Shown piece by piece: positions 12,071 to 18,832 of a stretch of DNA of 64,000 nt. Source of the stretch: Candidatus Peregrinibacteria bacterium GW2011_GWF2_38_29 (lineage in GTDB: Bacteria > Patescibacteriota > Gracilibacteria > UBA1369 > UBA12463); assembly GCA_000992695.1 (NCBI GenBank), contig LBUS01000002.1, forward strand, positions 1 through 64,000. The letters are read 5' to 3'. Every line of letters starts with the position of its first letter. Position 1 is the first letter of the stretch. Below the pieces are notes generated by a model that searched no databases, had not been told where the DNA came from, and saw only the letters and a list, made by a program, of their open reading frames with translations. The translations under genes were made by a program, and so were the position numbers.

Positions 12071-13069
12071 ATGGGAAGAGGCGGTGAAAAATTAGGAGTT
12101 GATAAGGATTTAATGCTTTCTAAAGCCGATGCTGTTGCTTTGCAACGTTTCTTGGAAGAGAGAAGGGCTTTAAATAGAGATCTTGCTAATTTAAGAGGTT
12201 CTTTAGATGAAAGACTAGCAAGGATGAGAAGGATGGAGCTTGAGGCGATTGATCGTGAATTGGAGCTCGAAAGGGCTATCGCAGAAAAAAAGGCTTTAGG
12301 TGCTGTTGATGATAAAGACGACGAAGGAGATGATGATTTGGACCTTGCTGAAAAGGTTGATATGGCTCTTGGCTCTCATCCTCGCGCTGTTACTTTGATG
12401 CAAAAATTGTTGACAAAACTTAACGGTAGAACTGTTCGTATCCTCGAGAGTGGTCTTGATGATGTGATGGACGCTTTGCGTCCTAAAAAGAGAGGTGATT
12501 GTGAATTGAGAAATGGTTGCGCCGAAGATGATAATAGAAAACGTCCTTGTACGTGGGTTGGATGTAATTATAATCTTTATTTAGACGTAAATCCTGAAAC
12601 AGGTTCTTTAAAGCTTAATTTTCCGGATTTGAATCCGTGGGAAGTTCATCCTAGATATTCTTGCGCATTGGATATTGCGGACGATGGTGGTTGGCCACTC
12701 GAGCGCGTTGGCAAAGTTATGAATCTTACCAGAGAGAGGATTAGGCAGTATGAAGTTGCGTGCGTTAAAAAGCTTCGTTCATCTCTTGGGCTTGATGATT
12801 TTGTTGTTTCTGATGAGCTCGATGTTGGATTACGCGTTGAGGATGGTGACGATAGCGTTGTTGTTAATGATGAAAAAAGTTTGGCAAAAGCGGGTGTGGC
12901 GGTTTTGGCTGAAGGAGTTGATGGGAATGGAGAAGATGCTGATGTTACCGTTAAAGCGACGGCAGTTGATGCTGCGCCTAAAAAACCGTTAAAAGCGCCT
13001 GTTGAAACATTGAATGCCGGTCAAAGTGAAGGTGACGATGTTTTTGATATTGGCGAACTCGAGATATAG
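12071..13069 (+). CDS. Cys-motif protein with sigma-70 region 4-like HTH
   Basis: RPCTWVGCNYNLYLDV...SCALDIADDGGWPLERVGKVMNLTRERIRQYEVACVKKLR. Confidence 0.8.
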   Translation: MGRGGEKLGVDKDLMLSKADAVALQRFLEERRALNRDLANLRGSLDERLARMRRMELEAIDRELELERAIAEKKALGAVDDKDDEGDDDLDLAEKVDMALGSHPRAVTLMQKLLTKLNGRTVRILESGLDDVMDALRPKKRGDCELRNGCAEDDNRKRPCTWVGCNYNLYLDVNPETGSLKLNFPDLNPWEVHPRYSCALDIADDGGWPLERVGKVMNLTRERIRQYEVACVKKLRSSLGLDDFVVSDELDVGLRVEDGDDSVVVNDEKSLAKAGVAVLAEGVDGNGEDADVTVKATAVDAAPKKPLKAPVETLNAGQSEGDDVFDIGELEI

Positions 13070-17239: not shown

Positions 17240-17542
17240 TGGCTCCCGAGGTCAGGTTCGAACTGACGACCCACCGGTTACATTTATCTTCAAGTTTCCT
17301 TGAAGGATGGACTATATCATCATCCTTTCGGATGCGAGGCGTTTCGACCGTTAAAATTTAGCGGCCTACTCCTTTCGGATAGTCTCTGAACCTTCCGTGA
17401 ATTTTAAAGTTCACGGCTTGGCTGCGGATTACCTTGGTTTTACTTTAGGCTTCCCGCAATTAACCTCGTTTTTCATCCTAAATTTCTTTAGGAAGCTGCG
17501 ATTATTTCACAGCCGGTTGCTCTACCACTGAGCTACTCGGGA
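17240..17542 (-). tRNA. tRNA-Asn(GTT) interrupted by a group I intron; CCA encoded
   Basis: Exons TCCCGAGTAGCTCAGTGGTAGAGCAACCGGCTGT and TAACCGGTGGGTCGTCAGTTCGAACCTGACCTCGGGAGCCA join into a full cloverleaf with anticodon GTT. Confidence 0.95.
17281..17508 (-). other. group I self-splicing intron, 228 nt, no ORF, inserted between anticodon positions 35 and 36
   Basis: P1 GCUGU/GCAGC with U.G at the 5' splice site; P3 CGAGG/CCTCG; P4 TGCGG/CCGCA; P6 CCGTGAA/TTCACGG; P7 core TTCAGAGACTA...GATATAGTCC; P8 CATCC-GAAA-GGATG; P9 CTTCAAG-GAAA-CTTGAAG; terminal omega-G. Confidence 0.95.
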
Positions 17543-17590
17543 GTTTTAAAGAACAGGAGAATTATACCTATGCTTGAATTTTTTACAATA

Positions 17591-18832
17591 TTATTTTAGC
17601 TGAAAGCAAAAAATCTCACGTGCGACGAACTGATCCGGGCGGTCATAAATCAAAGAAGAGCGTTTTTTTGGAGAAAGGGGAGCGACGGTGAAGCCGAATT
17701 CGAGTGCTTTTTCCGGAATGCTTTCGATATAGCGATAACTAAATTTATCACGGAATGCGGCGAGTGCGAGGATTATCGGGCATTTTATTTTTAATTCGCT
17801 GAGTTTTTTGAGAGTTGCGACGTATAAAGCTTCAAGTTCTGCGCTTATTGCTGCGATTTCTTCGAGCGTTGGTTTTTTGATGAGGCGTGGGCCAAGATAA
17901 GATTCTCCAACAATTGCGTCGATTTTGTCCGGTAAATCGGATGCTTTTAAATCATTTATATCTTTTGCGAAAATGTATGATTTTGGTTCTTGTAATTCAT
18001 ATTCTTTTGAGAGCCAATTAATATTTATTTGTGTGTCTTTGATTGCTTTTTCGGCCTTATCTGAGCCAACAACTTCAGCACCCATCAAAAGTGCTTCGCA
18101 TAAAATTGTGCCGTTTCCGCAGAATGGGTCATAGATTACAGGATTTTTATTTTGAAGCGATGAATCGAACTTATTTATGCCGGAAAGGTTTATCATAATC
18201 TGCGCGGTTTTTGGTGGGAGCATGCCGGAATCCATGTTTCTTGCAGGGCGATTAAAATCGCGATGTTCGTATGATTCAAAATCTTGAATTGCAACCGTTT
18301 CCGTTATATAAATCTTTTCTCCGATTTTTATAATTGAGGCTTCCAAGCCCTTATCTATCATCTTTTCTTCCACGACAATCACATTATGAACGTTCTGAAA
18401 ATCTTTATTTACAAACCTTGAAGAGCGGCCATTTTCTGTCAGAAATTTTTTAATATTTTTTAATGAATTCTTTAGAATATTTTCACTTTTAGCATGTAAA
18501 TTGTGGACACTTATTCCATAAACTATCTTTGAAGATGAAGATGCAAACTTTTCTAAAATGCGGTGAGTGATCACTGCGCAAGCCGTTTCGGTCAGGGTGT
18601 TTACAGGGAACCGGAGTTCGCTCAAAACTTTTGAAATTTTGATTGTTCCACCAAGAATATTCAAAATTCCTTGAGGGTTTGAAAGAGGTTTTGAGAGCGA
18701 TAAGGCGTAAAAACCGTCTTCGTATCCGATCATTTGGTCGCCTTCGCTCATTAGCCCTTTTAATTCCATGAATGACAATTCCGGGACCCTGCCGAGCGAA
18801 AAAATATATAAATTTTGATCTAATGAAACCAT
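17591..18832 (-). CDS. Trm11/UPF0020-type RNA (tRNA guanine-N2-like) methyltransferase
   Basis: YDPFCGNGTILCEALLMGAEVVGSDKAEKAI and catalytic region DAIVGESYLGPRL. Confidence 0.8.
   Translation of the reverse strand: MVSLDQNLYIFSLGRVPELSFMELKGLMSEGDQMIGYEDGFYALSLSKPLSNPQGILNILGGTIKISKVLSELRFPVNTLTETACAVITHRILEKFASSSSKIVYGISVHNLHAKSENILKNSLKNIKKFLTENGRSSRFVNKDFQNVHNVIVVEEKMIDKGLEASIIKIGEKIYITETVAIQDFESYEHRDFNRPARNMDSGMLPPKTAQIMINLSGINKFDSSLQNKNPVIYDPFCGNGTILCEALLMGAEVVGSDKAEKAIKDTQININWLSKEYELQEPKSYIFAKDINDLKASDLPDKIDAIVGESYLGPRLIKKPTLEEIAAISAELEALYVATLKKLSELKIKCPIILALAAFRDKFSYRYIESIPEKALEFGFTVAPLSPKKRSSLIYDRPDQFVAREIFCFQLK

Follow-up and report, generated by a model that had tools for sequence, protein, structure and literature searches.

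A group I intron interrupting the anticodon of a tRNA-Asn(GUU) gene in a Peregrinibacteria genome, with counterparts across the phylum

Architecture of the split tRNA-Asn gene and its intron

The window analysed here is a 64,000-nucleotide stretch of a Peregrinibacteria genome (G000; 1.23 Mb in 23 contigs), and it contains a complete tRNA-Asn(GUU) gene that is split within its anticodon by a group I intron (Table 1). The 5' exon reads ...ACCGGCUGU in the window sequence. According to the original prediction, the tRNA would be continuous only upon removal of 228 nt; ARAGORN with introns allowed identified a tRNA-Asn(gtt) at 17240-17542 on the minus strand with a 228-nt intron at exactly 17281-17508, and the same program run without introns found no tRNA at 17240-17542. 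A standard tRNA search of the window returned tRNA-Gln as its sole find. The joined exons, which had been expected to form a tRNA once spliced, adopt a normal 75-nt tRNA-Asn fold in ARAGORN, featuring the anticodon GUU, a U1-A72 pair, G73 and the CCA end. The promoter-like site upstream matches the consensus at 10 of 12 positions, with two such sites found vs 1.4 expected by chance.

Table 1. Positions of the split tRNA-Asn(GUU) gene, its exons and the elements of its intron in the window
Feature	Position	Strand	Description	Support
Promoter-like site	17561..17588	minus	TTGTAA-16-TATAAT, upstream of tRNA	weak evidence; same in congener G001
tRNA-Asn(GUU) gene	17240-17542	minus	complete, encoded CCA; split after U35 by group I intron
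5' exon	17509..17542	minus	34 nt, end ...GGCUGU (through U35)
P1, exon strand	17509..17514	minus	GGCUGU, last U opposite guide G	CTGT invariant in relatives
Group I intron	17281..17508	minus	228 nt, ORF-less, last base G at 17281	RF00028, ARAGORN, intronless alleles
P1, internal guide	17494..17499	minus	GCAGCU	GCAGC invariant in 25 relatives
P2 hairpin	17476..17493	minus	GAAA loop	double-sided changes in 7/7 pairs
P3, 5' strand	17463..17468	minus	CGAGGU, partner GCCUCG 17335-17340	compensatory changes among congeners
P4, 5' strand	17454..17459	minus	UUGCGG, partner CCGCAG 17422-17427	drawn fold and covariation alignment
P5 stem-loop	17431..17450	minus		drawn fold and covariation alignment
P6/P6a stem-loop	17391..17421	minus		drawn fold and covariation alignment
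P7, 5' strand	17380..17384	minus	GACUA, partner UAGUC 17310-17314; guanosine-binding helix	invariant in 25
P8 hairpin	17321..17334	minus	CAUCC-GAAA-GGAUG	drawn fold and covariation alignment
P9 hairpin	17288..17305	minus	CUUCAAG-GAAA-CUUGAAG	95% cells paired, 6/7 pairs covary
3' exon	17240..17280	minus	41 nt, start UAACCGGU, end GCCA (CCA encoded)

The intron matched the Rfam Intron_gpI model (RF00028) along its full length (1-253 of 253) with 106.3 bits, above the gathering score of 50, as expected of a group I intron. The corresponding E-value of 1.3e-26, computed over 64 kb and 4227 families, indicates that the match is not due to chance. Every element originally claimed could be placed in the intron, including P3, P4, P6 to P9, several GAAA loops and the terminal G, together with a P1 helix in which exon GCUGU pairs with GCAGC and leaves a U.G pair at the splice site. 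The GAAA loops are localised to P2, P8, P9 and one hairpin after P7. The region between P7 and P3 holds two extra hairpins in this copy and one hairpin in the congeners. The features that define group I introns are present: a core of P3-P8 and P4-P6 with the guanosine site in P7, a 5' splice site that follows a U paired with a guide G, and a G as the last intron base. Subgroup IC3 is the usual group I class of bacterial tRNA introns. No open frame of at least 55 codons was found in the intron, in agreement with the claim that it has no ORF, and it therefore lacks the coding capacity of an intron with a homing endonuclease. Its description as close to minimal size is fair, given that relatives range from 199 nt to more than 700 nt.

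Intron-bearing and intronless alleles in related genomes

The same intron occupies the same tRNA in two congeners, Candidatus Peregrinibacteria bacterium GW2011_GWC2_39_14 (G001; LBWJ01000011.1) and G002, and the 75 exon bases are identical in G000 and G001. An exact pattern detected no intronless tRNA-Asn in either congener, and none is among the 38 tRNAs found in G001. Thr-GGU, Pro-UGG, Tyr and Ser-GCU are likewise missing from the G001 list; these absences probably reflect assembly gaps or introns. An intronless allele, which the original prediction had suggested seeking in related genomes, was found in three members of the sister genus (G003, G004 and G006) as TGTTAACCGGTAGGTCGTTGG, reading GTT. 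These alleles represent a natural empty site, which independently sets the junction at CUGU|UAA. In another member of the sister genus, G007, the intron is present and its P1 loop contains an HNH ORF. The upstream flank of the window's gene, including a methyltransferase gene (17591-18832), is conserved with the congeners but the downstream flank is not. Immediately beyond the CCA of tRNA-Asn (17240 and below), the sequence resembles neither congener, which makes the 3' end of the tRNA a point of rearrangement or integration.

Alignment of 25 homologous introns provided a further view of the fold. The cells of the drawn helices were paired in 84.7% of cases vs 31-46% with partners slid by 1-3 columns, a measure that favours the drawn over the slid versions because the window's sequence itself served to draw the structure. 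Stronger evidence comes from double-sided changes, of which there were 269 vs an average of 94 after shuffling; the imperfect alignment around P3-P6 reduces the covariation counts and does not inflate them. The P2-P9 helices covary strongly across the homologues, with P7 invariant. P3, for instance, pairs as CGAGG/CCUCG in the window's genome, CAGGG/CCCUG in G001 and CUGGG/CCCAG in G002. The covariance model, the tRNA fold and this covariation, along with the intronless sister-genus alleles and the same intron in congeners, uphold the identification of a CPR tRNA-Asn(GUU) with a group I intron inserted between positions 35 and 36.

ARAGORN labels 17 of the 24 named intron-bearing relatives described below as tRNA-Thr(tgt), which would call for splicing of the precursor, exclusively or in addition, at shifted sites that join CU to UGUAA and give tRNA-Thr(UGU). 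We regard such splicing as extremely improbable, as pairing of the guide GCAGC with the CUGU end of the exon places the U.G pair after U35, the U1-A72 pair and G73 match tRNA-Asn, the intronless alleles read GTT, and the genome already contains an ordinary tRNA-Thr(TGT). Based on the P1 pairing, the acceptor stem and G73, we rejected the label; the tRNA-Thr(tgt) assignments at intron-bearing tRNA-Asn genes (loci L175-L201) are likely an annotation error in public CPR genomes.

A second tRNA-Asn gene in the same genome

The original prediction held that a second intact tRNA-Asn(GTT) would make the split locus a dead copy, and such a gene does exist. It is intronless, lies on another contig of the same genome (C7:52532-52606; L113:12186-12260) and has sound stems and a CCA end. 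It is very divergent from the split gene and is located beside tRNA-Lys(TTT) within a stretch of about 1.1 kb that is absent from G001. The surrounding genes are housekeeping genes, read by eye as nusA, recA and dnaJ, and every match to the second tRNA-Asn in a phage collection is a tRNA-Asn gene of a phage. A tRNA-like element uncalled by ARAGORN directly follows it (L113, about 12266-12376); the ends of this element read GCAGGCG...CGCCTGC, position 33 in its CAGTTAA loop is an A, and a long insert precedes the T arm.

The presence of this second gene, which by eye has promoter-like upstream sequence of its own, raises the alternative that it serves the cell and that the split locus is a dead or dying relic. 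True dead copies do occur elsewhere: in Parcubacteria GW2011_GWA2_48_9 (L184:4045-4512) an intact tRNA-Asn is followed about 125 nt downstream by a 5'-truncated intron-bearing copy, which is a real dead copy and perhaps a step of intron loss. For the window's genome, however, we consider a relic very unlikely. The split gene has intact stems, splice sites and CCA, its 75 exon bases equal those of G001, and P3 has changed in compensation, whereas the divergent second gene in a stretch that G001 lacks looks like a later gain. Thus the second gene was confirmed, but not the dead copy. Since the split gene shows no decay and no other tRNA-Asn was detected among the 38 tRNAs found in G001, these sequence comparisons suggest a split gene that most likely functions and a second gene that arrived later. 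With a sound second tRNA-Asn in the genome, loss of splicing at the split gene need not be lethal; the second gene may relax the need for splicing but would not abolish it.

Distribution, spread and comparison with known systems

A search of the named GTDB collection with the junction pattern gave 27 matches, 24 of which are tRNA-Asn genes with this intron. These carriers belong to the Peregrini-, Parcu-, Nealson-, Kaiser-, Kerfeld-, Buchanan-, Doudna- and Gracilibacteria and to other Patescibacteria; the remaining three matches (two Chryseobacterium and one Rhodospirillaceae) have no tRNA and were dismissed as chance. Across 389 genomes spread over the phylum, a covariance model of the 3' junction scored above 50 bits in 73 (about 19%), contrary to the initial impression that the 35/36 site is unusual. 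Weaker matches of about 38-45 bits, which include plain intronless tRNA-Asn genes, were left out of this count. The 5' half of tRNA-Asn was recovered at 28 of 29 further loci, 27 by an explicit exon ending in CUGU and one by ARAGORN alone; the last locus sits at a contig edge. Three other searches were uninformative or negative: the pattern CCGGCTGTGAACN{20,50}GCAGC was too narrow and had zero matches in the 389 genomes, a two-mismatch tRNA-Asn search gave noise, and none of 2.9 million viral contigs matched the 3' junction pattern exactly, so viral carriage was rejected.

An intronless tRNA-Asn was detected in 10 of the 73 carriers vs 266 of the 316 other genomes (Fisher p about 1e-30, uncorrected for relatedness). 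Pattern searches detected none in the other 63 carriers, where the split gene would therefore have to splice. In most carriers it thus appears to be the only tRNA-Asn, in draft assemblies and with patterns that may miss odd tRNAs. Both intron-bearing and intronless tRNA-Asn genes are kept in five members of one family (f82: G155, G170, G183, G275 and G328).

About 7 of the 24 named relatives carry long ORFs in the P1 loop, and ORFs of about 100-120 aa are found there in the tRNA-Asn introns of G007/L197, L177, L178, L182, L195 and L196. The two that were tested both match HNH endonuclease families (PHROG 2255, E about 1e-31). These introns share the site, the guide and an alignable core with the window's intron, which differs from them in having no ORF. 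In a tree of 25 Asn introns and three others, the Asn introns fall into two strongly supported core types; Peregrinibacteria are found in both, many branches of the tree being weak. The tRNA-Phe(GAA) intron of G004, from the same family (L076:1183-1473), nests inside one Asn type, which makes a move between tRNA hosts possible. With only three non-Asn introns in the tree, a consequence of an overly strict motif filter, the Asn introns could not be placed among the Leu and fMet introns. The HNH ORFs, the patchy presence and the tree fit homing at the tRNA-Asn site with an occasional change of tRNA host. Other group I matches were observed in 23S rRNA genes. In the window's genome, one of 44.4 bits, under the cut-off, adjoins an apparent homing-endonuclease ORF (L002:1501-1760; C4:108787-109046), and two 23S rRNA genes of other genomes (L166, G046:C18; L167, G039:C70) contain up to about seven strong or weak matches within 5 kb.

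We therefore propose, with a probability of roughly 93%, that the locus is a working tRNA-Asn(GUU) gene whose self-splicing group I intron lies between U35 and U36, has no ORF and belongs to a phylum-wide family at this exact site. The fold, the site, its conservation and its distribution carry this proposal; we infer expression and, by analogy with the known group I mechanism, catalysis. In the folded transcript, the guide GCAGCU would pair with GGCUGU of the 5' exon, and a guanosine bound by P7 would attack after U35. In the second step, the freed U35 would attack just behind the terminal G, so that ...GU is ligated to U... and the anticodon GUU is re-formed. The family probably spread by homing, and the window's copy would have lost the ORF or never had it; the second tRNA-Asn was probably acquired later in this genome.

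Judging by these sequences, asparagine decoding in many CPR bacteria appears to hinge on a ribozyme inside the anticodon. Conventional tRNA finders overlook the split gene or call it tRNA-Thr, so a genome may be wrongly listed as having no tRNA-Asn. The presence of the intron in some close relatives and its absence from others allow intron gain, loss and homing to be tested at a single tRNA site. More tentatively, 35|36 could be an undescribed phylum-wide CPR intron site, with two distinct ribozyme core types that have passed from lineage to lineage and, on one occasion or more, between tRNA-Asn and tRNA-Phe, and with about one-fifth of the phylum bearing a self-splicing intron in seemingly its only tRNA-Asn, often mislabelled tRNA-Thr(UGU). 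The literature searched yielded nothing that describes a group I intron at tRNA-Asn 35|36. A 2025 preprint, as cited in PMC12641178, concerns a novel tRNA insertion site in Patescibacteria, possibly the same one, and hence the same phylum and kind of element. Group I introns are known in the bacterial tRNA genes for tRNA-Leu(UAA), Ile(CAU), Arg(CCU) and fMet (PMC3984707). The window's intron resembles these in being a small anticodon-loop ribozyme that, by analogy, would remove itself, with endonuclease ORFs in some relatives. Unlike them, it resides in tRNA-Asn(GUU), has its junction at 35|36 inside the anticodon and carries extra hairpins between P7 and P3.
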